A stretch of 64,000 bases of DNA from Pigmentiphaga humi (GTDB lineage: Bacteria; Pseudomonadota; Gammaproteobacteria; Burkholderiales; Burkholderiaceae_B). The position numbers and the translations under genes are program-made. The stretch covers positions 186,001-250,000 of the forward strand of contig NZ_UWPJ01000005.1 of NCBI RefSeq assembly GCF_900606115.1. Reading direction: 5' to 3'. The first letter of the stretch is position 1. The number at the start of each line of letters is the position of its first letter. The notes beneath the pieces were generated by a model. It made no database searches. It saw nothing but the letters and a program-made list of their open reading frames with translations, and was not told where the DNA came from. Positions 48,745 to 64,000 of the stretch are shown one piece after another.

Positions 48745-48773
48745 CTGGTCTACTATTCAGACCAGTAGACCAG
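48745..48773. promoter_or_regulatory. Dyad operator CTGGTCTAC-N11-GTAGACCAG before the sulfatase array
   Basis: A perfect 9-bp inverted repeat with an 11-bp spacer, which itself contains a third GACCA, lies 25 bp before the first Bug gene. TGGTC/GACCA half-sites are typical of FadR-type GntR regulators, and one is encoded inside the array at 51394. It would act as repressor site near the promoter. Confidence 0.65.
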
Positions 48774-48798
48774 AACATCACTCGGAGACGTCCGCACC

Positions 48799-49785
48799 AT
48801 GCTCGCCAGATCCGCTCCCTTCCACCGCCGCGCCGCGGCCTTGCTCGCCGCGTGCGCCGCGCTCTGGGCCGGCGCCGCCTCCGCCGACGACTATCCGCAG
48901 CAGCCCATCAAGCTGCTGGTGCCTTCGGTGCCCGGCAGCGCCCCTGACGTGTTTGCCCGCATCCTGGCCGAGCCGCTATCGGCCGGGCTGGGCCAGCGGG
49001 TCGTGGTCGAGAACAAACCCGGCGCCGGCGGGCTGATCGCGATGGAAACGCTCGCCAAGGCCCAACCCGACGGCTACATGCTGGCGATCGCCCACGACGG
49101 CAACATGGCGATCAACACCATCGTGTACAAGCAGCTGCCCTACCGCCCGCTGCAGGATTTCTCGCCGGTATCGCTGCTGGGCTTCAACGAATTCGTCCTG
49201 GCCGCCAACCCCGCGCTCGGCGTGCGGAACTACGCGCAATTCATTGCCCATGCGCGCGCGCAGGACGGCAAGGCGACGTACGGATCGGCGGGTGTGGGTT
49301 CGCCCAATCACCTGTTCATGGAACAACTGATGCAGGCGGCCGGCATCCGGCTCGCGCACGTGCCGTACAAGGGCGGACCGGCCGCGATGCAGGATCTGCT
49401 GGGCGGCCAGATCGATTTCATGCTGGTGGGACTGTCTCCCGCCCTGCCCCATATCCAGAGCGGCAAACTGGCGGCGGTGGCGGTGCCGCAATCGGCCCGC
49501 TCGCGCATGCTGCCCGGCACGCCTACCGTGGGCGAATCCGTGCCCGGGTTCGCGACGCGGACCTGGTTCGGCCTGTACGGGCCGGCCAAACTGCCGGCCC
49601 GCATCGTCGACCGGCTCAACCAGCAGGTCCGGCAGGCGCTCGGCGATCCCAAGGTGCGCGAACGCATCGCGGCCCAGGGCATGGTGGCCGAAGCCGGCGC
49701 GCCGGCGGCACTGGCGGCCATGGCCGAAGAAGACATCCGCCGCTACCGGCAGCTGGCCGCCGCCATCGACCTGCAAGCCAATTGA
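48799..49785 (+). CDS. Bug/TctC-family periplasmic solute receptor
   Basis: The 328-residue protein is the first gene of the sulfatase array. It has a signal peptide (AAALLAACAALWAGAASA) and Bug signatures YPQQPIKLLVPSVPGSAPDVFARIL, ENKPGAGGLIAMETLAKA and VPYKGGPAAMQDLLGGQID. The PGSAPDV version of the ligand loop, instead of the common PGGxxD, is shared with the second Bug receptor of the array (58757), so the two may bind related ligands. Confidence 0.92.
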   Translation: MLARSAPFHRRAAALLAACAALWAGAASADDYPQQPIKLLVPSVPGSAPDVFARILAEPLSAGLGQRVVVENKPGAGGLIAMETLAKAQPDGYMLAIAHDGNMAINTIVYKQLPYRPLQDFSPVSLLGFNEFVLAANPALGVRNYAQFIAHARAQDGKATYGSAGVGSPNHLFMEQLMQAAGIRLAHVPYKGGPAAMQDLLGGQIDFMLVGLSPALPHIQSGKLAAVAVPQSARSRMLPGTPTVGESVPGFATRTWFGLYGPAKLPARIVDRLNQQVRQALGDPKVRERIAAQGMVAEAGAPAALAAMAEEDIRRYRQLAAAIDLQAN

Positions 49786-49792
49786 CGCCCGC

Positions 49793-51355
49793 ATGACACG
49801 TCCGAACTTCCTCGTCTTCATGACCGACCAGCAGCGCGCCGACCACCTCGGCTGCTATGGCAACGCGCACGTACGCACGCCCCATATCGACGGCCTGGCG
49901 GCGCGCGGCACGGTCTTCGACCGGTGCTACGTCGCCTCCCCGGCGTGCATGCCGAACCGGTCGGCCATCATGACCGGACGCATGCCGATCGCCGCCGGCG
50001 CCCGCATGAACGGCGTGCCCCTGCCGCTGGACAGCCGGACCTTCGTGGACGTGCTGCGCGATGCGGGCTGGCGCACCGCGCTGATCGGCAAGAGCCACCT
50101 GCAGAACATGACGGACAACGCGCCCGCCTGGCGCAACGGCCTGGACCGGGCGCCTGACCAGGCGCGCCGGAACGGACGCGACGACCCGGCCTACGAGCAG
50201 GAATCCATCGCGCGCTGGCGCGATCCCGGCCACGCCGTGCGCACGCCCTACTACGGCTTCGACCACGTCGAGCTGTGCCTGGAGCACGGCGACGAGGTCG
50301 GCGGCGACTATCAGCGCTGGCTGGAACGCGAGCACCCGGGCGCGGATGCCTTGCGAGGCTCCGCCCACGCGCTGCCCGGCGGCTCGGCCGCGCCGCAGGC
50401 ATGGCGCACGGCGCTGCCGGAGCGGCTCTATCCGAGCGCCTTCATCGGCGAACGCACCTGCGCATGGCTGGAGCAGCATGCCGCGGACCGCGCGGCGCCT
50501 TTCTTCCTGCAATGCTCGTTTCCCGATCCGCACCACCCGTTCACGCCGCCCGGCGGGTACTGGGACATGTACCGGCCGGAAGACGTCGCGCTGCCGCCGT
50601 CGTGCGGCCCGGCGCGCGCGGACGACGTGCCGCTCAAGCGCGCGCTGCACGAGGAACTCGCCCAGGGCCGCCGTCCCGCGGGCGGCAGCCGGATGATCGC
50701 CGTGACCCCGCAGGAAGCGCGCGCCGCCATCGCGCTGAACTACGGCTCGATCTCCTGCATCGACGACGTGATCGGCACGGTGCTGGCCAGGCTCGACGCG
50801 CTGGACCTGGCCGGCGACACCGTCGTGCTGTTCCTGAGCGACCACGGCGACTTCATGGGCGACCACGGGCTGCTGTTCAAGGGGCCGCTGCACTACCAGA
50901 GCCTGGTGCGCATGCCGTTCATCTGGGCCGACCCCCAGGCGCCCCGGGCGCAGCGCCGTCCGGACCTGGCCAGTGCCATCGACATCGCCCCGACCATCCT
51001 GGCGCGCGCCGGGCTGGCGGCGCCGCATGGCGTACAGGGCCACGACCTCGCCCCCGGCGCGCCGGATGCGCCCGCATCCCGTTGCGCCGCGCTGGTCGAG
51101 GAAGAAGGCCACCGCCCCATGCCCGGTTCCGGCCTGCCCAAAGTCCGCACCGTCGTCACCCAGGACTGGCGCCTGTCGGTGCACGCCTTCGAAACATGGG
51201 GCGAACTCTACGACCTGCGCGCCGATCCGCACGAAACCGTCAACCTCTGGGACGACCCGGGCAGCGCCGCGACGAAATCGGCGCTGCTGTGGGAACTGGC
51301 CCGCTCCATGGCGCGGCACGCGGACGACTGCCCGCTGCCGACGCGCATGGCCTAG
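49793..51355 (+). CDS. Type I sulfatase (choline-sulfatase-like, cytoplasmic)
   Basis: A 520-residue sulfatase that hydrolyses an organic sulfate ester. The formylglycine motif is C52-M-P-N-R56 and metal residues are seen in M-T-D12-Q-Q and LSDHGDFMGDHGLLFKG. No signal peptide is present, so the substrate must be taken up intact. The start is seven bases after the receptor stop. A formylglycine-generating enzyme is required but not encoded in the window. Confidence 0.93.
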   Translation: MTRPNFLVFMTDQQRADHLGCYGNAHVRTPHIDGLAARGTVFDRCYVASPACMPNRSAIMTGRMPIAAGARMNGVPLPLDSRTFVDVLRDAGWRTALIGKSHLQNMTDNAPAWRNGLDRAPDQARRNGRDDPAYEQESIARWRDPGHAVRTPYYGFDHVELCLEHGDEVGGDYQRWLEREHPGADALRGSAHALPGGSAAPQAWRTALPERLYPSAFIGERTCAWLEQHAADRAAPFFLQCSFPDPHHPFTPPGGYWDMYRPEDVALPPSCGPARADDVPLKRALHEELAQGRRPAGGSRMIAVTPQEARAAIALNYGSISCIDDVIGTVLARLDALDLAGDTVVLFLSDHGDFMGDHGLLFKGPLHYQSLVRMPFIWADPQAPRAQRRPDLASAIDIAPTILARAGLAAPHGVQGHDLAPGAPDAPASRCAALVEEEGHRPMPGSGLPKVRTVVTQDWRLSVHAFETWGELYDLRADPHETVNLWDDPGSAATKSALLWELARSMARHADDCPLPTRMA

Positions 51356-51393
51356 GAGATGGTTATGCTTAGCTCGTCAGGAGCCTCGTAGCG

Positions 51394-52134
51394 ATGGGAA
51401 TTTCAAGCATGCAAATCATCTCTCGCATCCCCGGCGACAGCCCCAACATCACCCGCCGGACCGTACGCGACCAGATCAGCGACAAGCTCGCCTACATGAT
51501 CCATTCCGGCCTGCTGCGCCCCGGCGACGAACTGCCGTCCGAGCGCGAACTAGCCACCACGCTGGGCGTATCGCGCGAAACCGTGCGCGCCGCCATCAGC
51601 ATGCTGCAGGCCTGGCGCATGCTGGAAGTCAGCCAGGGCGCGCGTACGCGCGTGCTGGGACCCGGCTCGGTAGGCGTGCACGATTCGGTCAGCATCCTGC
51701 GCGACCTGGGCGAGCGTTCGGTGGAAGAGGTGGCCGAGGCCCGCGCCGCCGTGGAGCTGCAGGTCATCCGGCTGGCGGCGCGCCGCATCACGCCTGCGCA
51801 ACTGAACCGCCTGGACGACCTGCTGGCCGACCAGGCCGCAATGATGGACGACCCGGTTCGCTTCCAGATATCGGACCAGGAGTTCCACGAAGTCCTGTAC
51901 CGCGCCTGCGGCAACGCCCTGCTGGCCGACGTGGTGTTCGACTTCTACGGCTACGCGCTGGAACACCGCCGCAACGCCCTGCGCCGGCCGGGCGCGATTT
52001 CCCATAGCGTGGCCGACCACCGCGCCATCGTCGCCGCGCTCAAGAGCAGCGACCCCGAGGCCGCGGTCGCCGCCATGCAGCAGCACCTCGAACAAGTCCA
52101 CCGCACCACGCTCCAGGAAATGGACGCGCCATGA
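51394..52134 (+). CDS. GntR-family regulator, FCD (FadR-like) subfamily
   Basis: A 246-residue regulator. The winged helix contains SGLLRPGDELPSERELATTLGVSRETVRAAISMLQAWRMLEV, and the FCD domain shows the His/Asp ligand pattern (DQEFHEVLYRACG; VADHRAIVAAL). It is embedded in the array after the first sulfatase and its stop overlaps the next gene start (ATGA). It probably binds the dyad at 48745-48773 and releases it when a sugar-acid intermediate is present. ATG 51409 is an alternative start. Confidence 0.9.
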   Translation: MGISSMQIISRIPGDSPNITRRTVRDQISDKLAYMIHSGLLRPGDELPSERELATTLGVSRETVRAAISMLQAWRMLEVSQGARTRVLGPGSVGVHDSVSILRDLGERSVEEVAEARAAVELQVIRLAARRITPAQLNRLDDLLADQAAMMDDPVRFQISDQEFHEVLYRACGNALLADVVFDFYGYALEHRRNALRRPGAISHSVADHRAIVAALKSSDPEAAVAAMQQHLEQVHRTTLQEMDAP

Positions 52135-53057
52135 ACCCCTCGCCTCCCGTCATCCTCGATCCGCGCGCCGAAGGACTGTTCGCCGCCGGCGCCCGCCTGG
52201 AGCGGCTCCATACCGGCGCGGCATGGAGCGAAGGGCCGGCCTGGCTCGCCCACGCCGAGACCCTGGTCTGGAGCGACATTCCCAACAACCGCATGCTGGC
52301 ATGGAGCGAGCGCGAAGGCGGCCGGGTCTGGCGCGAGCGGGCCGAGTTCACCAACGGCCATGCCTGCGCGGCCGACGGCGCGCTGCTGCATTGTTCGCAC
52401 GGCTTGCGCGCGATCGTGCGCACCCGCTTCGATGCGCAGGGCCGCGCGCTGCCCGACGAAGTGCTGGTCGACCGCTACCAGGGCCGCCGGCTGAACTCGC
52501 CCAACGACCTGGTCGTCAAGCGCGACGGCACCATCTGGTTCACCGACCCGCCCTACGGCATCCTGTCCGACCGCGAGGGACACCGCGCGCCATCGGAACT
52601 GCGCGCCAACTACGTGTTCCGCTTCGACCCGCGCGACGGCTCCCTCGACGTCGTCAGCGACTTCCCCGAAGAGCCCAACGGCCTGGCCTTCTCGCCCGGC
52701 GAAGACATCCTGTACGTGACCGACACGTCGGCGGCGCTGCGCAGCGACGGCGGCGGCCATCACCACATCGTCGCCTTCGACGTGGTGTCCGGCCGCACGC
52801 TGGCTCGTCCCCGCGTGTTCGCCGTGGTGGAGCCGGGCCTGGCCGACGGCCTGCGCGTGGACGAACGCGGCTGGATCTACACCAGCAGCGAAGACAGCGT
52901 ACAGGTCTACCACCCCGACGGCACGCGGCTGGCCCGCATCCCCGTCCCCGAGAAGGTCGGCAACCTCGCCTTCGGCGGGGCGGCGCGCGACCAGCTCTAC
53001 ATCTGCGCGAGCACCTCGCTGTACCGCATCCCGCTAAATACCCGAGGCAATTCCTGA
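52131..53057 (+). CDS. SMP-30/gluconolactonase-family lactonase
   Basis: A 308-residue six-bladed propeller hydrolase that opens sugar lactones. Metal ligands of the family are recognisable: E34 (AWSEGPAW), Asn in LNSPNDLVVKRDGTIWFTDPPYG, and Asp in GLADGLRVDERGWIYTSS. In the array it would convert a sugar lactone to an aldonic acid before dehydration. It has no signal peptide and overlaps the regulator gene by four bases. Confidence 0.9.
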   Translation: MNPSPPVILDPRAEGLFAAGARLERLHTGAAWSEGPAWLAHAETLVWSDIPNNRMLAWSEREGGRVWRERAEFTNGHACAADGALLHCSHGLRAIVRTRFDAQGRALPDEVLVDRYQGRRLNSPNDLVVKRDGTIWFTDPPYGILSDREGHRAPSELRANYVFRFDPRDGSLDVVSDFPEEPNGLAFSPGEDILYVTDTSAALRSDGGGHHHIVAFDVVSGRTLARPRVFAVVEPGLADGLRVDERGWIYTSSEDSVQVYHPDGTRLARIPVPEKVGNLAFGGAARDQLYICASTSLYRIPLNTRGNS

Positions 53058-53067
53058 GAGCAACGCC

Positions 53068-53994
53068 ATGAGCCAAGAAATCCTGCTGCTGGTCGAAAAG
53101 TGTTCCCACTGCATCAGCTGGTACGACCCTGAATCGGGCGAGCGCCTGCGCACCCTGCCGCTGCCCGATTTCCCCCACGAGTTCGTGGTCGACGCCGCCG
53201 AGCGCTATGCCTACGTCGGCCACTACGGCGTGGAAACTTCCGGCCACGTCGGCCCGGGGGGTTCCGCCATCCTGCAAATCGATATTGCTGCGGCCAAACT
53301 GGTACGGTCCATAGACCTGTACCCGTTCAACCGCATCCACGGCATGCAGATGGACCGCGCCGGCCGGCTCTATGCGCTGAGCGAGGAGAAAAGCACGCTG
53401 CTCGTGCTGGAGGACCCGGCCAGCGACAACGCGCCGCGGCGCGCCGTGCCCTCGGGCGGCATCAAGAGCCACCTGTTCGCGCTCGCGGCGGACGGGCAGA
53501 CCGCGTTCAGCATGAACCTGCTCAGCCACACCGTCACCCGGCTCAGGCCGTGGGAGCCGCTGCACCAGCCGCAGGCCTGCCACCCCGGGCTCAAGCCCGA
53601 AGGCTGCTGCCTGAGCGAGGACGAACGCACGCTCTACGTCAGCAATCGCTGGAGCAATACGCTCTCAGCCATCGACACCGCCACGATGACGGTGCGCGAA
53701 ACGCGTCCGTCGCGCGACGACGCTACGCGCATCTACCGCATCGGCCGCCGCCTGCTCGTCACCAATTACGGCGACCGCAGCATCTCCGTCGTGGACCCCG
53801 TTACGCTGGAAGAGACCGGCTACGTGAAGATGGACGCCCGGGCCATCGCGCTGTCGGTGCACCCGACCCGGCCCATCGCCTACGTCTCGCAGGACGACGA
53901 CCGCGTAGGCGTGCTGAACCTGGAGACCCTCCGCTTCGACCGCTACATCGCCACGCAGCGCGAGCCCGACGTCTCGCGCATCGTGCACGCCTGA
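53068..53994 (+). CDS. YncE-like beta-propeller protein
   Basis: A 308-residue protein of repeated beta-propeller blades, e.g. CCLSEDERTLYVSNRWSNTLSAIDTATMTVRET and RPIAYVSQDDDRVGVLNLETL. It belongs to the YVTN/lactonase-like group and has no signal peptide. No catalytic residues can be assigned; a second lactonase or a binding role is possible. It starts ten bases after the SMP-30 gene. Confidence 0.8.
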   Translation: MSQEILLLVEKCSHCISWYDPESGERLRTLPLPDFPHEFVVDAAERYAYVGHYGVETSGHVGPGGSAILQIDIAAAKLVRSIDLYPFNRIHGMQMDRAGRLYALSEEKSTLLVLEDPASDNAPRRAVPSGGIKSHLFALAADGQTAFSMNLLSHTVTRLRPWEPLHQPQACHPGLKPEGCCLSEDERTLYVSNRWSNTLSAIDTATMTVRETRPSRDDATRIYRIGRRLLVTNYGDRSISVVDPVTLEETGYVKMDARAIALSVHPTRPIAYVSQDDDRVGVLNLETLRFDRYIATQREPDVSRIVHA

Positions 53995-54056
53995 GCCGCG
54001 CCTTCCTCCTCATGACCCTGCCGGCGGCAGCGCCGGCCCAACGCTTCGACAACGAC

Positions 54057-55091
54057 ATGGACACTTCCGCACTTCCCGTGGTCGCCCTCACCCTTGGCGA
54101 TCCCGCCGGCATCGGCCCCGAACTCATCGCCCGGCTGCTCGCGCGGCCCGAAACCACCCGCGCGGCCAACGTCGTGCTGGTCGGCGATCCCTGGCTATGG
54201 GAGGCCGGGCAGCGCGTGGCCGGCCTGCGCAGCGCCACCCGCCCGGTATCCGGCTTCGCGGAAGTCCGCGAGCGCGCGGACACCGGCGTGCCGGCCATGC
54301 TGGCCGTCGATACCGTCGCCGAATCGGCCGTCACGGTAGGCCGAGCCGAGGCCGCCGGCGGCCGCTCGGTGCTGGCGGTGCTGGACCGCTGCATGAGCGC
54401 GGCCACGGCCGGCGAGATCGACGCGATCTGCTTCGCCCCGCTCAACAAGCACGCGATGAAGCTGGGCGGCCTGCGCCACGAGGACGAACTGCACCACTTC
54501 GCCGAGTACCTGGGCGTGACCGGCTACTTCTGCGAGTTCAACACGCTGGGCACGCTGTGGACCTCGCGCATTTCCTCGCACATACCGATCAAGGACATCC
54601 CGCTGTACATCGACAAGCAGCGCATCAAGGAAGCCACGCGCCTGATCCACCGCTCGCTGCTGGCCAGCGGCGTGGCGGCGCCGCGCGTGGCGGTGGCGGC
54701 GCTCAACCCGCACGGCGGCGACGGCGGCACCTGCGGCCGCGAAGAGGTCGAGATCATCGGGCCGGCCGTGCGCGAACTGGCCGAGGAAGGCCTGACCGTC
54801 GAAGGCCCCTACCCGGCCGACACCATCTTCCTGAAGGCGCGCGACGGGCAGCTCGACGCCATCGTCACCATGTATCACGACCAGGGACAGATCGCCATCA
54901 AGCTGATGGGCTTCTCCAAGGGCGTGACCGTGCAGGGCGGCATGCCCATCCCCATCACCACGCCGGCGCACGGCACCGCCTACGACATCGCCGGCCAGGG
55001 CCGCGCCGACGTCAACGCGATGGCCAACGCCTTTTCCATCGCCTGCCGCATGGGGCTGAGCCAGCGCCGCCCGGCCGCCCCCGCACGCTAA
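54057..55091 (+). CDS. PdxA-family dehydrogenase (4-hydroxythreonine-4-phosphate dehydrogenase-like)
   Basis: A 344-residue PdxA-fold enzyme. The N terminus [21 protein letters not shown] and the metal-binding His residues ([43 protein letters not shown]) are intact, so it is probably an active NAD-dependent decarboxylating dehydrogenase. Catabolic PdxA2 proteins act on 4-phospho-threonate or erythronate and come with a DUF1537 kinase; no kinase is encoded here. ATG 54057 gives the normal N terminus; an in-frame ATG lies at 54012. Catabolic role is inferred from context. Confidence 0.88.
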
Positions 55092-55107
55092 CCACCGAGA
55101 CCACACC

Positions 55108-56280
55108 ATGAAAATCCGTTCCGTACGCGCCCGCGTTTTCGAATGGCAGGGCAAGACCGTCCCGCCCCAGGCCAACTTCTGCTCCAACGCCATGGATGCC
55201 CTCTACGACCGGGGCGATTCCATGCACACCTTCCGTTTCCACGGCTGGACCGTGGTAGAAGTGGAAACCGACGACGGCATCGTCGGGCTGGGCAACGTCG
55301 CGCTGGCGCCGCGCATCGCCAAGGCCATCATCGACCAGTACCTGGCGCCGCTGGTGATCGGCCAGGACCCGTGGGACTACGAATACCTCTGGCAGCGCAT
55401 GTACCGCTCCACCCTGGCCTGGGGCCGCAAGGGCGTCGCCATGGCCGCGATCTCGGCCATCGACATCGCCATCTGGGACATCCTGGGCAAGTCGGCGAAC
55501 AAGCCCGTGTTCAAGCTGCTGGGCGGCCGCACCAAGGAACGCATTCCCTGCTACTACTCCAAGCTCTACCGGGGCGACCTGGCCGCCATGCAGGAAGAAG
55601 CCGCCAAGTTTCTCAAGCAGGGCTTCACGGCCTTCAAGATGCGCTTCGGCTACGGCCCCAGCCACGGCACGCGCGGCGTGGCCGAGAACCTGAAATCGGT
55701 CGAGGCCGTCCGCGAGGTGATCGGCTACGAGAACGATCTCATGCTCGAGTGCTACATGGGCTGGGACCTGGACTATGCCCGCCGCATGCTGCCCAAGCTG
55801 GAGAAATTCGAGCCGCGCTGGCTGGAAGAACCGGTGATCGCCGACGACGTCGACGGCTATGCGGAACTGTCGCGCCTGAGCAGCATTCCCATCTCGGGCG
55901 GCGAGCACGAGTTCACGCTGCACGGCTTCCGGCAGCTGCTGGACAAGCGGGCCGTCTCGGTCGTGCAGTACGACACCAACCGCGTGGGCGGCATCACCGC
56001 CGCGCACAAGATCAATGCGCTGTGCGAAGCGCACTCGATTCCCGTGATCCCGCATGCCGGCCAGATGCACAACTACCACCTGACCATGAGCACGCTGGCC
56101 TCGCCCATGAGCGAATACTTCCCGCAGTTCGACGTGGAAGTCGGCAACGAACTTTTCTACTACGTGTTCAAGGGCGAACCCCAGGCTCAGGACGGCTTCC
56201 TGCAGCTCGATGACGACGTGCCCGGCTTAGGGCTGACGCTGAACACCGACTACCTCGATCAATTCCAGATCATCGAGTAA
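55108..56280 (+). CDS. Enolase-superfamily acid-sugar dehydratase (mandelate racemase group, RhmD-like)
   Basis: A 390-residue enolase-superfamily protein that probably dehydrates an aldonic acid to a 2-keto-3-deoxy acid. Metal ligands are visible as Glu in [10 protein letters not shown], Glu in WLEEPV, and Glu in SGGEHEF. The catalytic His lies in [11 protein letters not shown] and a His-Asp dyad partner in QYDTNRVGG. Sequence resembles L-rhamnonate dehydratase more than enolase. It is preceded by a 16-bp gap and followed by the AraD1-like gene after four bases. Confidence 0.88.
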
Positions 56281-56284
56281 CGAC

Positions 56285-57274
56285 ATGCGCATCATTCAAT
56301 TCAAACAGGATGGCCGGACCTGCGTCGGCCGGGTGATCGACCACGACCAGGTCGAACTCGTGGCCGCCGACGACGGCGTCTACGGCCTCGCGCTGCAGGC
56401 GATCGCGGAGAACGCCGCGCTGCCGGCCTTGATCGAACGCCGGGCCACGGGCACGCGCGTGGACTACCAGGCGCTGGTGGACGAGCGGCGCCTGCTGCCG
56501 CCGCTGACCCATCCGGACCCCGCCCACCTGCTGGTATCCGGCACCGGCCTGACCCACTTGGGCAGCGCCGCCTCGCGCAACGCCATGCATGCCAAGATCG
56601 CGCAAGATCCGGCGCCGTCCGATTCGATGAAGATGTTCAAGCTCGGCGTGGAAGGCGGCAAGCCCGCGGCGGGCGCCGCCGGCGTGCAGCCCGAGTGGTT
56701 CTACAAGGGCGACGGCGGCATCGTGGTCGCGCCCGAGGCCGACTTCCCGGTGCCGGGCTTCGCGCAGGACGCCGGCGAAGAGCCCGAGCTGGCCGGCGTG
56801 TACGTGATCGATCCCCAGGGGCGGCCGCGCCGCATCGGGTTTGCCATCGGCAACGAGTTCTCGGACCACGTGACCGAGCGCTTCAACTATCTGTGGCTGG
56901 CGCATTCCAAGCTGCGCCCGTGCGCATTCGGCCCCGAACTGCTGCTGGGCGAGGCGCCCGCCGACCTGCAGGGCACCAGCCGCATCGTGCGCGCGGAAGA
57001 CACCCTGTGGGAACAGCCCTTCGCCACGGGAGAGGCGAACATGAGCCACACGCTGGCCAACCTGGAGCATCACCACTTCAAGTACGCGCAGTTCCGCCGG
57101 CCCGGCGACGCGCACGTGCATTTCTTCGGCACCGCCACGCTCAGCTTCGCGGACCAGGTCCAGACCCGCGACGGCGACCGCTTCGAAATCTCGCTGCAAG
57201 GGTTCGGCCGTCCGCTGCGCAACACCGTGCGCTACCAGCCGGACGCCGGCCTGGCCCAGGCGGAGGGACTCTAG
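56285..57274 (+). CDS. FAH-superfamily AraD1/GguC-like protein (2-keto-3-deoxy-acid dehydratase candidate)
   Basis: A 329-residue fumarylacetoacetate-hydrolase superfamily member with LLVSGTGLTHLGSAASRN and EEPELAGVYVIDPQGRPRRIGFAIGNEFSDH segments typical of the AraD1/GguC group. In related pathways such enzymes dehydrate 2-keto-3-deoxypentonate to 2-ketoglutarate semialdehyde. It sits between the acid-sugar dehydratase and aldehyde dehydrogenase genes, exactly the Weimberg order. The activity is inferred, not proved. Confidence 0.82.
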   Translation: MRIIQFKQDGRTCVGRVIDHDQVELVAADDGVYGLALQAIAENAALPALIERRATGTRVDYQALVDERRLLPPLTHPDPAHLLVSGTGLTHLGSAASRNAMHAKIAQDPAPSDSMKMFKLGVEGGKPAAGAAGVQPEWFYKGDGGIVVAPEADFPVPGFAQDAGEEPELAGVYVIDPQGRPRRIGFAIGNEFSDHVTERFNYLWLAHSKLRPCAFGPELLLGEAPADLQGTSRIVRAEDTLWEQPFATGEANMSHTLANLEHHHFKYAQFRRPGDAHVHFFGTATLSFADQVQTRDGDRFEISLQGFGRPLRNTVRYQPDAGLAQAEGL

Positions 57275-57278
57275 CGCC

Positions 57279-58715
57279 ATGACCCGCCATCATCACTACA
57301 TAGGCGGCGAATGGGTCGCCGGCTGCGCCGAGGCGCCCAACGTCAACCCCTCCGACACCTCGGACATCGTCGGCCTCTACGCCCAGGCCGACGCGGCGCT
57401 GGCGCGCCAGGCCATCGCCGCGGCCGCGCAGGCATCGCCGGCCTGGGCCGCGTCCACGCCGCAACAGCGCTTCGACGTGCTCGATGCGGTCGGCGCCGAG
57501 CTGCTGGCGCGCCGGCAGGAGCTGGGCGAACTGCTGGCCCGCGAGGAGGGCAAGACCTTGCCCGAAGCCATCGGCGAGGTCGCGCGCGCCGGGATGATCT
57601 TCAAGTTCTTCGCGGGCGAGGCGCTGCGCACGCCGGGAGACCTGCTGCCTTCGGTCCGGCCCGGCGTGGGCGTGGAAGTGTTCCGCCAGCCGGTCGGCGT
57701 GGTCGGGCTGATCACGCCGTGGAATTTCCCGATCGCCATTCCGGCCTGGAAGATCGCCCCGGCACTCGCCTATGGCAATTGCGTGGTCTTCAAGCCCGCC
57801 GACCTGGTGCCCGGCAGCGCCTGGCATCTGGCCGAAATCCTGTCGCGCACGGCGCTGCCCAAAGGCGCGTTCAACCTCGTCATGGGCCCCGGTTCGGAAG
57901 TGGGCCAGACCCTGGTGGAGCATCCCGACGTGCGGGCGATCAGCTTCACGGGATCGGTGGCCACGGGCCGCCGCATCATCGCCGCGGCGGCCGCGCGCGG
58001 CGCCAAGGTCCAATGCGAGATGGGCGGCAAGAACCCGCTGGTCGTGCTGGACGACGCCAATCTCGCCCAGGCCGTGGAAGTGGCCGCGCAAGGCGCCTAC
58101 TTCTCGACCGGCCAGCGCTGCACGGCATCGAGCAAATTGATCGTGACCGACGGCGTGCACGACCGCTTCGTCGACGCGCTGCGCGCCCGCCTGGAAGGCT
58201 TGAAGATCGGCCATGCGCTGCGGGCCGGCATCGACATCGGACCGGTGGTGGATGCGCGCCAGCTCGCCGGCAACCTGGCGCACCTGGAAACGGCCCGCGC
58301 CGAAGGCGCCGGCGCCATCTGGGGCGGCGAAGCCGTGGCGCGCGACACCGAAGGCTACTTCCAGCTGCCGGCCCTGGTGGCGCAGACCACGCCCGAAATG
58401 GCGGTGAACCGGCAGGAGATCTTTGGCCCCGTGGCCAGCGTGCTGCGCGCGCGGGACTACGACCATGCGCTGCACCTGGCCAACGATACCGAGTTCGGCC
58501 TGGCCGCGGGCATCTGCACCACCTCGCTCAAGCACGCCACGCATTTCCGCCTGCACGCGCAGGCCGGCATGGTGATGGTCAACCTGCCGACCGCCGGCGT
58601 CGACTACCACGTGCCGTTCGGCGGCACCAAGGCGTCGTCGTACGGGCCGCGCGAACAGGGCCGCCACGCCGCCGAGTTCTATACCACCGTCAAGACCGCG
58701 TACCTGCAAAGCTGA
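57279..58715 (+). CDS. NAD(P)-dependent aldehyde dehydrogenase (2-ketoglutarate-semialdehyde-type candidate)
   Basis: A 478-residue ALDH. The catalytic Cys is C281 (TGQRC281TASSK), the general base is E247 ([11 protein letters not shown]), and the cofactor motif FTGSVATGR is intact. Length and the [22 protein letters not shown] stretch fit the ketoglutarate-semialdehyde and succinate-semialdehyde groups. In the array it would oxidise the semialdehyde to 2-oxoglutarate. It starts four bases after the AraD1-like stop. Confidence 0.9.
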
Positions 58716-58756
58716 ACATCCGTCCCCCGACTACCCGGGAACACCAGGAGACAACC

Positions 58757-59737
58757 ATGCAACGCCATTTTCTTCGCCACGCCGCGCTCGTCCTGTCGGG
58801 CATGCTCTGCGGACTGCCCGCCCACGCCGACGACGCATTTCCCAGCCAGCCCGTACGCATCATCGTCGGCTCGGAAGCCGGAAGCGCTCCCGACGTGCTG
58901 GCGCGCGTCCTCGGCAAGGACCTGGGCACGCTGCTGGGCCAGGCCGTCATCGTCGAGAACCGCGCCGGCGCCACCGGCACGATAGGCGCGGCGGCCGTGG
59001 CGGGCGCCCAGCCCGACGGCTACACCCTCTTGATGGGCACCGTGTCCAACATCGCGCTGGCGCCCTCTTTCTATCCCATCAAGTACAAGCCCACCACCAG
59101 CTTCACCCCCATCAGCATGGTGGCTTCGGTGCCGCTGGTGCTGGTGGCCTCGCCCGCCACCGGCATCGCCAGCATCGACCAATTGCGCGCCAAACTGAAG
59201 GATCCAGCCGCCGCCGCATCGTTCAGCTACTCCTCTCCGGGGGTGGGCGGTCCGCAGCACCTGGCCGGGGTGCTGCTGGGCAAGGAAATGCATGCGACCA
59301 TGCTGCACGTGCCCTACAAGAGCGGCGGCGCGGCGCTGACCGCCGTGGCCGGCGGCGAGACCCAGATCGGCTTCGCCGGCATCGCCGCCGCCATCGGCCT
59401 GGTGCAGGCCAAGCGCGTCACCCCGCTGTTCGTCACCGCCGGCACGCGCTTCCCGCAATTCCCGGACGTCCCTTCGGCGCCCGAAGCCGGCCTGCCCGGC
59501 CTGGAAGTGGACAACTGGCACGCGCTGTTCGCGCCGGCCGGCCTGCCCGCGCCGGTGCGCGCCAAGCTGGAGGCCGCCGTCAACAAGGTGCTGCAGTCTG
59601 CCGAAGTCAGGAAGCAATTCGAATCGCTGGGCGCGATGCCCGCCGGCGGCAGCGGCGAACAACTGGCGCAGAAAGTGGCCGCCGAGACCGCGCGCTGGAC
59701 GCAGATCGTCGAAAGCAGCGGCATCAAGTCCCAGTGA
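58757..59737 (+). CDS. Bug/TctC-family periplasmic solute receptor
   Basis: The 326-residue second receptor of the array. It has a signal peptide (HFLRHAALVLSGMLCGLPAHA) and Bug signatures FPSQPVRIIVGSEAGSAPDVLARVL, ENRAGATGTIGAAAVAGA and VPYKSGGAALTAVAGGE. The loop xxGSAPDV matches the first receptor of the array. AGGAGA precedes ATG 58757; the frame upstream is a shadow of the ALDH gene. Confidence 0.92.
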   Translation: MQRHFLRHAALVLSGMLCGLPAHADDAFPSQPVRIIVGSEAGSAPDVLARVLGKDLGTLLGQAVIVENRAGATGTIGAAAVAGAQPDGYTLLMGTVSNIALAPSFYPIKYKPTTSFTPISMVASVPLVLVASPATGIASIDQLRAKLKDPAAAASFSYSSPGVGGPQHLAGVLLGKEMHATMLHVPYKSGGAALTAVAGGETQIGFAGIAAAIGLVQAKRVTPLFVTAGTRFPQFPDVPSAPEAGLPGLEVDNWHALFAPAGLPAPVRAKLEAAVNKVLQSAEVRKQFESLGAMPAGGSGEQLAQKVAAETARWTQIVESSGIKSQ

Positions 59738-59758
59738 TCGCCCGATGAGAGACCAACC

Positions 59759-61207
59759 ATGGAACCGATGAACCTGCTGATCATCATGGACGACGAGCAC
59801 AACAAGAAAGTGCTCGGCTACAACGGCCATCCGATGGTCAAGACCCCCAACCTCGACAAGCTGGCCGCGCGCGCGACCTCGTTCGAGGCCGCCTATTCCA
59901 GTTCGCCCATCTGCGTACCGGCGCGCGCCGCGTTCGCCACCGGCCGGCCGGTGTACGAGACCGGCTATTGGGACAACGCCATCGCCTACGACGGGCGCGT
60001 GCGCAGCTGGGCGCACGAGCTGCGCGACGCCGGCCGCCGGGCCGTCTCGATCGGCAAGCTGCACTACACCGGCGACGACATCGACGGCGGCTTCACCGAG
60101 CAGATCATTCCCATGCACATCGAGGCCGGCGTGGGCGACCTGTACGGCCTGGTGCGCGACCCCTTGCCCATCCGCCACCAGTCCGCCGACCTGGCCAAGA
60201 GCATCGGCCCCGGCGAAAGCAGCTATACGCGCTACGACCGCGACATCACCGACAGGACGGTCGCCTGGCTGCACGAGCAGGGCGGCCGCGCGCAGGACAG
60301 GCCCTGGGTGCTGTTCTCCTCGTTCATCGCCCCGCATTCGCCGCTGATCGCCCCGCCCGAGTTCTATGCGATGTACGACCCGGCCGCCATCCCGCTTCCC
60401 AAGCGCGCCGCCGGCCCGCTGCATCCGTGGATCCAGGCCTGGAACGACTGCTACCGCTTCGACTCGCACTTCGAGAGCGATGCGCAGCGGCGCATCGCCA
60501 TCGCCTCGTACTTCGGGCTGTGCTCCTTCCTGGACCACAACGTGGGACGCATCCTGCACGCGCTCGAAACCAGCGGACTCGCCGGCAACACGCGCGTGAT
60601 CTTCCTGTCGGACCATGGCGACAATCTCGGCTCGCGCTCGCTATGGGGCAAATCCACCATGTACGAGGAATCCGCCGGCATCCCCATGCTCGCCGCCGGG
60701 CCCGGCCTGCCGGCGGGCAAGAAGGTGCGCACGCCGGTCTCCCACCTCGACTGTTATCCCACCGTGATGCAGACCGCCGGCCTGGAGACGCCGGCCGGCC
60801 TGGCCGGACGCTCGCTGTTCGACATCGCGCGCGAGCCGGACGACGCCCACCGCACCATCCTCAGCGAATACCATGCCGCCGGCTCGGTCAGCGCGGCCTA
60901 CATGCTCAGGCGCGGCCGCCACAAATACATCCACTACACCGGCTATGCGCCCGAACTGTTCGACCTCGAGCGGGATCCGGAAGAACTGGACGACCTGGCG
61001 GGCCGCCCGGAAAGCCGCCCCCTGCTGGACGGGTTCGAGGCGCACCTGCGCACGCTGTGCGACCCCGAGGCGGTGGACCGCCAGGCCAAGCGCGACCAGG
61101 CCGAGATGATCGCCCGGCATGGCGGCACGGAGGCCATCCTCAAGCGCGGCGGCAGCAGCTATACGCCCATACCGGGGGAAGAGGTCAAGCTGCTCAATGA
61201 CGACTGA
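59759..61207 (+). CDS. Type I sulfatase (second; choline-sulfatase-like, cytoplasmic)
   Basis: A 482-residue sulfatase with formylglycine motif C52-V-P-A-R56, metal residues in IIMDDEHNKK and LSDHGDNLGSRSLWGKSTMYEES, and the conserved Lys of GKSTMYEES. It lacks a signal peptide. It differs clearly from the first sulfatase of the array in active-site loops (DDEH versus DQQ), so the two probably act on different positions or substrates. Its end overlaps the cytochrome gene by 11 bp. Confidence 0.93.
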   Translation: MEPMNLLIIMDDEHNKKVLGYNGHPMVKTPNLDKLAARATSFEAAYSSSPICVPARAAFATGRPVYETGYWDNAIAYDGRVRSWAHELRDAGRRAVSIGKLHYTGDDIDGGFTEQIIPMHIEAGVGDLYGLVRDPLPIRHQSADLAKSIGPGESSYTRYDRDITDRTVAWLHEQGGRAQDRPWVLFSSFIAPHSPLIAPPEFYAMYDPAAIPLPKRAAGPLHPWIQAWNDCYRFDSHFESDAQRRIAIASYFGLCSFLDHNVGRILHALETSGLAGNTRVIFLSDHGDNLGSRSLWGKSTMYEESAGIPMLAAGPGLPAGKKVRTPVSHLDCYPTVMQTAGLETPAGLAGRSLFDIAREPDDAHRTILSEYHAAGSVSAAYMLRRGRHKYIHYTGYAPELFDLERDPEELDDLAGRPESRPLLDGFEAHLRTLCDPEAVDRQAKRDQAEMIARHGGTEAILKRGGSSYTPIPGEEVKLLNDD

Positions 61208-62036
61208 ACCGCTCCCCTGCCGGAACCGCCTGGGCCGCGGCCCGCTGCTGCCGCCGGCCCGCGTGCTGGCCGGCGCAGCGGCGGCGCTGGCCGTGCTGGC
61301 GGCGTGGCTGCTATGGCGGCGCCACGACGTGCTGGCCTGGCTGTGGCTGCCCCTGGAGGCCGGCAGGCCGCACCGCATCGATCCGGCCCAGGCCTGGCAC
61401 GCCCGCGCGATGGTGCTGGCGTGGGCGGTCATGATTCCGCTGGGCGTGCTCGCCGCCCGCTTCTTCAAGATCACGCCGCGCCAGCCCTGGCCCGCCGTGC
61501 TGGACAACAAATGGTGGTGGCGCGCGCACCTGGCCCTGCAACTGGGCGGCATCGCGCTGACGCTGGCCGCAGTGGCGCTGGTCTGGCAGGACGCCGGATC
61601 CGCCGCGGGCTGGGCACGCGCGCATCGCCTGCTGGCCTGGCTGGTCTGCGCCCTGGCGGCGGTGCAGGCGCTCGGCGGCATGCTGCGCGGCTCCAAGGGC
61701 GGCGGCACGCCCGACGAACGCGGCGACCACTACGACATGACGCCGCGCAGGTTCCTGTTCGAACGCGCGCACAAATCCTGCGGCTATCTGGCGATGGCGG
61801 TGGCCATGGCCGCCATCGCCACCGGCCTGGTCCACGTCAACGCGCCCCGCTGGATGGCGGTCTTCATCGCGCTGTGGACGCTGGCCTGGCTCGCCGCGTT
61901 CGCCTGGCTGCAGCGGCGCGGCTGGTGCATCGACACCTACCAGGCGATCTGGGGACCGGACCCGCGCCATCCGGGCAACCGGATGCCGGTGGTGGGGCCG
62001 GGGGTCCGGCGGATCGGGGCGGCGCAGGATCGGTAA
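61197..62036 (+). CDS. Cytochrome b561-type membrane protein
   Basis: The 279-residue protein has five or six hydrophobic helices. Four His residues at helix ends (WWRAHLALQ, RAHRLLAWLV, RAHKSCGYLA, GLVHVNAP) fit the two b-haem sites of the b561 family. ATG 61197 overlaps the sulfatase stop, so translation is coupled. Its role in the array is unclear; it may transfer electrons across the membrane to or from a redox partner. Confidence 0.8.
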   Translation: MTTEPLPCRNRLGRGPLLPPARVLAGAAAALAVLAAWLLWRRHDVLAWLWLPLEAGRPHRIDPAQAWHARAMVLAWAVMIPLGVLAARFFKITPRQPWPAVLDNKWWWRAHLALQLGGIALTLAAVALVWQDAGSAAGWARAHRLLAWLVCALAAVQALGGMLRGSKGGGTPDERGDHYDMTPRRFLFERAHKSCGYLAMAVAMAAIATGLVHVNAPRWMAVFIALWTLAWLAAFAWLQRRGWCIDTYQAIWGPDPRHPGNRMPVVGPGVRRIGAAQDR

Positions 62037-62138: not shown

Positions 62139-63074
62139 CTAACCCTCATTCGGAGGACAGAGGCGGCAATGCCGTCCCGACATGCGGGTCGGCCCCCCGC
62201 ACCCCCCGATCATCTCCAGCGTGGCCCGCGCCAGCGCGCTGTCGGCCTTGGCCAGTTCGCACAACAGGTCGAAGTGGTTGCAGTGCCCGGCCTCGACGCG
62301 CCGCACGGCGAGCCCGGCCGCGCGGCACATGGCTTCGTAGGCGGCGGTCTGGCGCTTGAAGCCTTCGGTTTCCAGGCCGCCCACCGAGACGATCATGCCT
62401 AGCGAGGGGCGAGGCGCCAGGAACAGTGGGCTCAGGCGCTGCGCCTGCTCTTCGTGCAGCCGCAGCCATTCGTTGACGTTGATCCCGCACAGCGGCCGCA
62501 AGTCGAACAGGCCGCTCATGGCCAGCACGCCCTTGATCGCGTCGGCCGGCAAACGGTACTTGTCCTGCCAGTCCTGGGCGGCGAGCATGCCGGCCAGGTG
62601 GCCGCCCGCCGAACTGCCGCCCACGTAGATGCGCTCGCGGTCCAGGCCGTATTGCGCGGCATGGTGGTAGATCCACGCCACCGCGCTGCGCACTTCGCGC
62701 ACCGCTTCGGCCAGCGTGGCCTCGGGCAGCAGCGTGTATTCCACCGGCGCCACCGCCACCCCGGCGGCGTTGAATACGGGCGCCATGACGGGCGCGTCTT
62801 CCTTGGTCTGGGAACGCCAGTAGCCGCCGTGGATGAAAACGAACACCGGCGCCGGCCGCGCGGCCGCGGCGGGCAGGAACAGGTCGAGCCGCTCGGCCGC
62901 TCCCATGCCGTACTGGATGTCGCACACCGCCGCGCAGCGCTCGCGCGCGGCCCGCGCCAGGTCGGCGTATTCGCGCACGCAGGCGTCGAAGTCGGGCACC
63001 GAGGCGCGCGCGTTGTACTGGACGGCGCGTTCGGCCAGGTCGGGAAAGAACAGCTCGGGCGGCAGGAAAGACAT
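62139..63074 (-). CDS. Alpha/beta hydrolase of the kynurenine formamidase (HGGYW) type
   Basis: A 311-residue hydrolase with the oxyanion motif HGGYW (FVFIHGGYWRSQTKED), nucleophile elbow GSSAGG (VGGSSAGGHLAGML) and catalytic His in EAGHCNHFDLL. It resembles eukaryotic-type arylformamidases and related esterases. The C-terminal 25 residues (GGPTRMSGRHCRLCPP) look like an unrelated extension. It is divergent from the lipoprotein gene. Tryptophan catabolism genes are not nearby, so the substrate is open. Confidence 0.83.
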   Translation of the reverse strand: MSFLPPELFFPDLAERAVQYNARASVPDFDACVREYADLARAARERCAAVCDIQYGMGAAERLDLFLPAAAARPAPVFVFIHGGYWRSQTKEDAPVMAPVFNAAGVAVAPVEYTLLPEATLAEAVREVRSAVAWIYHHAAQYGLDRERIYVGGSSAGGHLAGMLAAQDWQDKYRLPADAIKGVLAMSGLFDLRPLCGINVNEWLRLHEEQAQRLSPLFLAPRPSLGMIVSVGGLETEGFKRQTAAYEAMCRAAGLAVRRVEAGHCNHFDLLCELAKADSALARATLEMIGGCGGPTRMSGRHCRLCPPNEG

Positions 63075-63225: not shown

Positions 63226-64000
63226 ATGAACTACTCCATGCTGGCCAAGTTCGGCACCGCCGCCCTGCTGGCCGCCGTGCTGACCGCCTGTGGCGGCGAC
63301 GGCGCCATCCACGAGAACGAGACGGCTCCCAGCATCTCGCTGGGCGGCGATCTCGAGCACGCCGCCTCCTTTACCGTCGACGACCTGAAAACGCGCACGG
63401 CCGTCACGCAGACGGTCACCTACACCAGCGGCAACGGCTCGCAGACGCGCACCTACACCGGCGCGAACCTGTGGTCGCTGCTGGAGGACGCCGGCATCAA
63501 GACCGACCCCGCCTACAAGAACGACGTATTGCGCAAGTACATCGTGGTCGGTTCGTCCGACGGCTATCGGGTCGTGTTCTCGGCCGGCGAGCTCAAGCCG
63601 GACATGGGCAATCGCGCCAGCATCGTCGCCTATGCCGAAACGCGCGACGGCAAGTCCGGTCCGCTTTCCGATACCGACGGCCCCTTCCGCGTCACCTCGC
63701 CGGGAGACGTCAAGGGCGGCCGCTACGCGTCGATGGCCACCAGCGTCGAACTCAAGTCGCCGGTTTCCAAGCAGACCGGCATCGGCGGCGGCCTGTCGCC
63801 CACCTTCACCATCTCGGGCCAGGTGCAGCAGCCGCTCACCCTCGACCTGGCCGCGCTGCAGGCCGAACCCGCGGTCACGCGCACCCAGGGGGCCGGCAAC
63901 GAATACAAGGGCGTGGACCTCTGGTACCTGCTCAACGACGTCGCCGGCCTGAAGACCGCCCCCGGCGCGAAGAACCCGACCCTGGGCATGTACGTGCTCG
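63226..64000 (+). CDS. Lipoprotein with two molybdopterin-oxidoreductase-like domains (3' end outside window)
   Basis: An open frame from ATG 63226 runs off the window (258 codons seen). The start MNYSMLAKFGTAALLAAVLTAC is a lipoprotein signal with lipobox LTAC. Two similar units follow, each ending in the pattern Y-x-G-x-x-L-W-x-L-L (TYTGANLWSLLEDAGI and EYKGVDLWYLLNDVAGL), as in the SUOX-like oxidoreductase molybdopterin-binding fold. Whether it binds cofactor cannot be told here. A GGGAAGAG site precedes the start. Confidence 0.72.
   Translation, partial: MNYSMLAKFGTAALLAAVLTACGGDGAIHENETAPSISLGGDLEHAASFTVDDLKTRTAVTQTVTYTSGNGSQTRTYTGANLWSLLEDAGIKTDPAYKNDVLRKYIVVGSSDGYRVVFSAGELKPDMGNRASIVAYAETRDGKSGPLSDTDGPFRVTSPGDVKGGRYASMATSVELKSPVSKQTGIGGGLSPTFTISGQVQQPLTLDLAALQAEPAVTRTQGAGNEYKGVDLWYLLNDVAGLKTAPGAKNPTLGMYVL

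Follow-up and report, generated by a model that had tools for sequence, protein, structure and literature searches.

A twelve-gene array of Pigmentiphaga humi as a probable L-ascorbate catabolic operon with a sulfatase and receptor front end for ascorbate sulfate

The stretch of DNA considered here (the window, 64,000 nucleotides of Pigmentiphaga humi contig NZ_UWPJ01000005.1, part of a 5.1-Mb genome) carries twelve genes at 48799–62036, all on the + strand, with intergenic gaps of −11 to +62 bp. As listed in Table 1, they encode two TctC-type (Bug) receptors each followed by a sulfatase, an FCD-domain regulator, an SMP-30 lactonase, a beta-propeller, a PdxA-like enzyme, an enolase-family dehydratase, an AraD1-family protein, an aldehyde dehydrogenase (ALDH) and a b561-type cytochrome. 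The coordinates confirm the one-directional array that an earlier note on this DNA had described, and the genes are treated below as one functional array. Curated models back 11 of the 12 proteins, the exception being b561, whose match is weak for the window protein alone. The identical twelve-gene order recurs in three further loci (L022–L024, from two Pigmentiphaga records and one Alcaligenaceae bacterium), so that the array is beyond chance; these loci also hold the nearest enolase genes outside the window, 93–94% identical in the collection searched. The search for the array in other genomes, which the note had proposed, thus found the same order in these three, and elsewhere found rearranged clusters that contain sulfatase 2. 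It is argued below, with a probability of roughly 0.6, that it serves L-ascorbate catabolism, as an operon of the type reportedly described in Ralstonia eutropha H16 by Stack et al. 2020 (hereafter Stack-type), with a desulfation front end for an ascorbate sulfate, most likely the 2-sulfate.

Table 1. Features of the array, with window coordinates and supporting evidence
Feature	Position	Strand	Evidence or remark
Candidate operator, perfect 9-bp inverted repeat CTGGTCTAC-n11-GTAGACCAG	48745..48773	.	directly 5' of first gene (Bug1)
Bug1, TctC-type periplasmic receptor, GSAPDV loop, paired with sulfatase 1	48799..49785	+	PF03401, 221 bits vs cutoff 27
Sulfatase 1, C52-M-P-N-R formylglycine motif, without signal peptide	49793..51355	+	PF00884; cluster-specific clade
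FCD-domain GntR regulator, probable operon regulator	51394..52134	+	PF07729, PF00392
SMP-30/gluconolactonase, predicted dehydroascorbate lactonase	52131..53057	+	PF08450
Beta-propeller, predicted benzilic-acid-rearranging enzyme (2,3-diketogulonate to 2-carboxy-L-lyxonolactone)	53068..53994	+	TIGR02276, 51.2 bits vs 27.85
PdxA-like enzyme, predicted 2-carboxy-L-lyxonate decarboxylase	54057..55091	+	PF04166
Enolase-superfamily acid-sugar dehydratase, predicted L-lyxonate dehydratase (K177-x-R179, His316)	55108..56280	+	
AraD1-family protein (an FAH protein in the earlier note), predicted 2-keto-3-deoxy-L-lyxonate dehydratase	56285..57274	+	AraD1/GguC model NF040903, 516 bits vs cutoff 340
ALDH, predicted 2-oxoglutarate semialdehyde dehydrogenase	57279..58715	+	best two models ketoglutarate-semialdehyde types
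Bug2, TctC-type receptor, GSAPDV loop, paired with sulfatase 2	58757..59737	+	PF03401
Sulfatase 2, C52-V-P-A-R motif, without signal peptide, the sulfatase kept throughout ascorbate clusters	59759..61207	+	PF00884
b561-type membrane cytochrome, predicted ascorbate oxidoreductase	61197..62036	+	invariant H68, H111, H143, H192

Seven families of the Stack-type pathway stand together in the array, and the match to the reported pathway is by family. The neighbourhoods of related enolase genes were surveyed in the best 80 of 552 loci, several of them on short contigs, so that absences are weak. The PdxA-like gene is present in 75 of the 80, and the second dehydratase belongs to the DHDPS family (PF00701) in 66 loci and to the AraD1 family in 6, with both in none; that is to say, the two genes replace each other across loci. 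Around this core recur the propeller (31 loci), an amidohydrolase (PF04909; 22), SMP-30 (12), b561 (11) and aldehyde dehydrogenases of two types (13 and 7), and every one of the 12 SMP-30 loci also has the propeller. At E 1e-60 the propeller is found in 10 of the 268 genomes of the bacterial family. Since the PdxA-like enzyme, the propeller and b561, together with SMP-30, complete the published ascorbate pathway, the greater part of the array belongs to a known type.

The sequences of the individual enzymes are consistent with this assignment. The enolase-family protein contains K177-M-R179 and His316, and K177, R179 and H316 are kept in all 86 relatives; Arg179 and His316, in this numbering, are the residues that we take to be essential in L-lyxonate dehydratase. 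Three much closer solved structures for this protein (3STP, 3SSZ and 3SQS) bear putative or family-level names. A rhamnonate route was rejected, as the best NCBIfam model for the protein, NF011968, scores below its cutoff (235.9 vs 393). In the PdxA-like protein, for whose gene an alternative in-frame start at 54012 is possible, the three metal-site histidine motifs are kept in 86 of 86 relatives, and the PdxA motifs GHTE and FIRTS occur in none of the 86, with DELHH instead in 83. Both motifs presumably bind phosphate in PdxA, and their loss therefore fits an unphosphorylated substrate. ALDH reaches 488 bits against two ketoglutarate-semialdehyde dehydrogenase models, below their cutoffs of 770 and 750, and a search of PDB with AraD1 returned nothing at E 0.001.

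The b561 protein has six hydrophobic segments besides its four invariant histidines. Against PF03188 the window protein alone gives only E 0.15, and 15 of the 16 family members match this model of eukaryotic cytochrome b561, the best at 1.4e-7; a Variovorax homolog is annotated as 'cytochrome b561 domain-containing protein'. A PDB search with the sequence alone found nothing at E 10, and the best matches of the profile were weak, namely ascorbate ferrireductase (E 0.29) and Dcytb (E 6.9). The structure model has a pLDDT (predicted local distance difference test) of 81, and its closest solved folds, at modest E-values, are ascorbate-bound cytochrome b561 (probability 1.00, E 0.02) and human Dcytb (0.99, E 0.11).

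Both sulfatases score far above the PF00884 cutoff of 25 bits (142.3 and 143.6), are 26% identical to each other, and keep the C-x-P-x-R motif at residue 52 (sulfatase 2 in 10 of 10 sequences, sulfatase 1 in 7 of 7); the genome has four matches to the formylglycine-generating enzyme family (PF03781), two of them strong. The metal-site Asp lies at residue 11–12 of the longest start-to-stop open reading frame in both, which leaves no room for a signal peptide. The view of the earlier note that both lack one and act in the cytoplasm on an imported ester is upheld by this. Identity with choline sulfatase was rejected, because neither protein reaches the cutoff of the BetC model TIGR03417 (292.9 bits for sulfatase 2 and 200.7 for sulfatase 1, cutoff 433.45). 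The structure model of sulfatase 2 is poor (pLDDT 50).

What ties the sulfatases to ascorbate is their linkage. Nine orthologs of sulfatase 2 occur in the 268 family genomes at 67–100% identity, the next lower match being at 56%, and all nine are in ascorbate-type clusters: the window, G073 (L023), G517 (L022), G519 (L230), G468 (L208), G063 (L207), G041 (L176), G518 and G520. The last two are assigned partly by co-ordinates, that is, b561 was read beside sulfatase 2, and the propeller and sulfatase 1 were placed within about 11 kb. The propeller is present in 8 of the 9 genomes with sulfatase 2 vs 10 of 268 overall (Fisher p 7e-13, related genomes being counted apart), and the same test without the window's genus gives 2 of 3 vs 2 of 254 (p 5e-4). 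Outside the family, the linkage was found in Xylophilus (L038), in a Burkholderiales metagenome bin (L062) and on a Polaromonas plasmid (L226). Since the order of genes differs in four ways among these clusters, the linkage has outlived rearrangement. The window, L062, L208 and L226 have sulfatase 2 directly beside b561; in three more clusters a single gene intervenes, ALDH in L038 and a LysR-type regulator in L176 and L207.

Moreover, the phylogenetic trees give each sulfatase a clade of its own in these clusters. Ascorbate-linked sulfatase 2 forms one clade of 10 of 49 tree rows (support 100/96), in a tree that took 49 of 59 homologs by identity and length limits and did not include L226. 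Cluster-bound sulfatase 1 forms one clade of 8 of 29 rows (support 100/100), rows with stops or with less than 70% coverage being left out, and sulfatase 1 of this clade type is found only where sulfatase 2 occurs. Among 41 more distant sulfatase 2 matches, the 17 whose neighbourhoods were read show no PdxA, propeller or b561 match; the same holds for 5 of the 28 lower-identity family matches (the C27 paralog, G052, G013, G419 and G047). The most that L149 and L157, two of these loci, have is a remote enolase relative (27% and 24%). From the sister of the clade, described below, and from these distant relatives, which lack pathway genes, it follows that the clade, not the sulfatase family, is tied to ascorbate.

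Some further loci with such sulfatases were seen. The Polaromonas sp. P1-6 plasmid (564 kb; L226, CP087967.1:68675-90122) has the full pathway set and both Bug–sulfatase pairs, with IS66 and IS6 elements nearby and several genes split between frames in the record. In the P. humi genome itself, a sulfatase 2 paralog of 56% identity (C27:280253-281671, L149) lies beside a Bug gene and the 27% enolase-superfamily relative, possibly a second sulfatase–dehydratase pathway. L231, L232 and L233, from other Pigmentiphaga-genus genomes, carry a further Bug–sulfatase pair with a sulfatase 1 paralog 57–58% identical, and in G519 and G517 this pair lies some 20–30 kb from the ascorbate cluster.

The two receptors offer another line of evidence. 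Bug1 and Bug2 are 33% identical, yet the GSAPDV loop is common to both, as the earlier note had seen. The loci read, many of them fetched for their sulfatase, hold 153 Bug genes, of which 39 have a same-strand sulfatase no more than 400 bases away. For the loop count, 23 of the 153 without a readable loop were set aside (6 beside sulfatases, including L208, and 17 others). In the remainder, a loop of the G-x-x-P-D type is seen in 14 of the 33 Bugs beside a sulfatase vs 2 of the 97 others, and within this set the form GS-x-PD is confined to ascorbate clusters. Because the loop is shared despite the low identity and its GS-x-PD form is limited to ascorbate clusters, the sequences suggest that Bug1 and Bug2 take one kind of ligand. 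The usual GGGTD loop is present in 1 of the 33 vs 58 of the 97. Bug–sulfatase tandems are also common in the Burkholderiales loci read (L148–L172, L211, L212, and window 48799–51355 and 58757–61207), and the loop types hint at a broad class of Bug receptors for sulfate esters. With regard to other transporters, a sugar-type ABC transporter (MalK/UgpC-like by reading and annotation) follows b561 in the ascorbate-type clusters L038, L052, L055, L085, L088 and L229, and an Rbs-like ABC transporter is present in L082, L085, L099 and L101; these may import ascorbate, dehydroascorbate or glycosylated ascorbate.

From the observed genes, linkage, clades and motifs, the following reactions, with their substrate and the identity of the ester, are predicted. 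The Bug receptors would bind an ascorbate sulfate ester in the periplasm, a permease encoded elsewhere would take it up intact, and the cytoplasmic formylglycine sulfatases would free ascorbate and sulfate, sulfatase 2 probably being the conserved desulfating enzyme and sulfatase 1 an accessory for a related ester. b561 would then oxidise ascorbate to dehydroascorbate, SMP-30 would convert this to 2,3-diketo-L-gulonate, and the propeller would rearrange the latter to 2-carboxy-L-lyxonolactone. After the opening of this lactone, for which the enzyme is uncertain in this array, the PdxA-like enzyme would make L-lyxonate by decarboxylating 2-carboxy-L-lyxonate, two dehydrations by the enolase-family and AraD1 enzymes would follow, and ALDH would carry out the final step to 2-oxoglutarate. 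With a sulfate on O-2 the ene-diol should resist oxidation, so it makes chemical sense that a 2-sulfatase acts before the ascorbate oxidase and that desulfation is tied to the b561 gene.

Control of the array may lie in an inverted repeat directly before Bug1, a candidate operator for the FCD regulator. Its half-site has 3 matches in the window vs 0.12 expected, its counterpart AACTGGTCTACTATCCGTACCAGCAGACCAG precedes Bug1 in L022–L024, and in L085 one half-site lies about 33 bases upstream of the FCD match. The first base of the repeat, 48745, is where the array of the earlier note begins. Directly downstream of the array, an alpha/beta hydrolase is encoded on the opposite strand (62139–63074), and the window end truncates a protein at 63226–64000 that weakly matches molybdopterin oxidoreductases.

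Several observations weigh against the ascorbate sulfate assignment. No permease gene for the Bugs lies in the array, and two TctA genes are elsewhere in the genome. The amidohydrolase of family PF04909 (our c6), which we take to be the opener of 2-carboxy-L-lyxonolactone, has no ortholog in the genome when the L025 protein, which is not the characterised enzyme, is the query; the best match is at 31% identity (E 6.6e-9), and none is in the array. SMP-30 and this amidohydrolase are together in 0 of the 80 enolase loci, so that 2-carboxy-L-lyxonolactone, too, may be opened by the SMP-30 type, or by another enzyme. A sulfatase as the substitute opener is unlikely, as both sulfatase and amidohydrolase are lacking from 8 of the 12 SMP-30 loci. 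In the fold search with b561, 0 of 279 matches reach E 0.001. No NCBIfam model listed is matched above its cutoff by ALDH or by either sulfatase, so that these proteins have no close relative of known substrate, and L208 is without a propeller in the stretch read. To the same side belong two observations on the sulfatases that are given with the next explanation.

An ordinary ascorbate operon, merely co-regulated with sulfatases and Bugs that take up some unrelated organic sulfate and desulfate it for its sulfur or carbon, is an explanation we consider unlikely. About 27 of the 39 Bug–sulfatase tandems among the 153 Bug genes, from loci many of which were fetched for their sulfatase, lie outside ascorbate clusters. 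Sulfatase 2 is absent from 75 of the 80 ascorbate-type enolase loci, and from 6 of the 11 with b561, which makes the sulfatases an optional module. The sister of the sulfatase 2 clade (G291, L148; 60% identical) stands outside such clusters, with a Bug neighbour and no pathway gene in the 19 kb read, and such a sulfatase can thus serve something else. However, the cluster-bound sequences form a single clade in each of two separate sulfatase lineages, their linkage is kept through the four gene orders, sulfatase 2 adjoins b561 or is one gene away, and the loop type of Bug1 and Bug2 is absent, as far as loops are readable, from Bugs beside other sulfatases.

It is less probable still that the hydrolases act on another ascorbate conjugate, that is, a phosphate, a phosphodiester or a sulfate at another position. 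The formylglycine superfamily is promiscuous, the sulfatases have phosphonate monoester hydrolases and a multifunctional protein of the phosphatase family among their relatives, and two sulfatases so different suggest at least two esters. Against this, we know of no natural ascorbate phosphates, and ascorbate 2-sulfate is the natural ester of ascorbate with an inorganic acid that is named in an excerpt of PMC6191929. The model of the earlier note, a Weimberg-like route in which a sulfated pentose or deoxysugar acid loses its sulfate and is then oxidised through lactonase, dehydratase, AraD1 and ALDH to 2-oxoglutarate, seems very improbable. Cytoplasmic sulfatases fit it, and the last three steps do take a C5 acid and end in 2-oxoglutarate, so the part with dehydratase, AraD1 and ALDH stands; the carbon, however, would enter as C6 ascorbate and not as a pentonate, and there is no step for the propeller, b561 or the PdxA-like gene (75 of the 80 enolase loci have it), for which reason the route was rejected. 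Nor is a sugar dehydrogenase that would feed the lactonase, as in a Weimberg or L-arabinose-type pathway, or any member of an aldose-dehydrogenase family among the twelve genes, the part of the genome searched for one.

In the boldest reading, for which the chances appear about even, the array would be the first route known in bacteria that is dedicated to ascorbate 2-sulfate and to a second sulfate of ascorbate. Its two cytoplasmic sulfatases, each with a periplasmic receptor of its own, would have evolved as cluster-specific lineages that unmask these esters for the ascorbate pathway, and would have spread in Burkholderiales, a plasmid included. At title and abstract level, the literature searched yielded no bacterial use of ascorbate 2-sulfate, and in that on Pigmentiphaga sulfatases the sulfatase–receptor module was not found described. 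Novelty is therefore confined, as far as searched, to the sulfatase/Bug module: the claim of the earlier note that the combination is not described survives for this addition and fails for the rest, which matches the published L-ascorbate pathway. Such a route would link the organic sulfur cycle to the vitamin C cycle. At least some animals make ascorbate 2-sulfate: it is natural in brine shrimp cysts according to PMC6191929, where ascorbate is said to be the only form in mammals, whereas PMC11322087 counts ascorbic acid 2-sulfate among human vitamin C metabolites, as which it was measured in people. The specific sulfatase and receptor sequences could be tested and could serve as markers for such bacteria in gut and aquaculture data. 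The array would also give one instance of a sulfatase whose substrate is deduced from neighbouring genes, in a family of which, according to PMC5066984, few members have a characterised substrate.

The array can be compared with several known systems, of which the L-ascorbate pathway of R. eutropha H16 is the nearest in its steps. There, as Stack et al. 2020 (JACS 142:1657) are said to have reported, ascorbate is oxidised by an enzyme of the b561 family and the ring is opened by one of the gluconolactonase family. A benzilic acid rearrangement by a WD40-like protein is then said to give 2-carboxy-L-lyxonolactone, which an amidohydrolase opens, and decarboxylation by a PdxA-family enzyme to yield L-lyxonate, which is converted to 2-oxoglutarate. 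The array shares with it the b561-type cytochrome, the gluconolactonase family, the propeller, the PdxA family and the predicted steps from L-lyxonate to 2-oxoglutarate; it differs in adding two Bug–sulfatase pairs and the FCD regulator, in lacking an ortholog of the amidohydrolase, and in using an AraD1-type dehydratase where most loci have the DHDPS type. L-lyxonate degradation in Pseudomonas aeruginosa PAO1, reportedly described by Ghasempur et al. 2014, is said to involve an enolase-superfamily dehydratase with Arg179 of a KxR motif and His316, followed by a second dehydration and oxidation of a semialdehyde. Unlike that route, the same steps would here be the lower half of a longer route from ascorbate.

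On the Ruegeria pomeroyi megaplasmid (SPO_RS21070 to SPO_RS21040, L227), the propeller, PdxA, enolase (65% identical), DHDPS, ALDH and SMP-30 genes are likewise together, whereas TRAP and ABC transporters take the place of the Bug–sulfatase pairs, and the 21 kb read contain no annotated sulfatase and no b561 match. For sulfatase 2, the choline sulfatase BetC is the closest named NCBIfam model and also the closest among solved structures, and no choline pathway gene is among the twelve. As to the AraD1 step, PMC6336799 describes an L-2-keto-3-deoxypentonate dehydratase of the FAH/MhpD type from Herbaspirillum huttiense, which belongs to the L-arabinose route; it is of the FAH type, and it is by its reaction, that of the proposed AraD1 step, that it is likened here. 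In an excerpt of PMC11066805, the conversion of diketogulonate through 2-carboxy-L-lyxonolactone to L-lyxonate is described as non-enzymatic chemistry. An ascorbate degradation pathway that requires an enolase-superfamily (COG4948) enzyme is presented in a section of PMC10444878, according to which ascorbate enhanced the growth of SAR202 cells.

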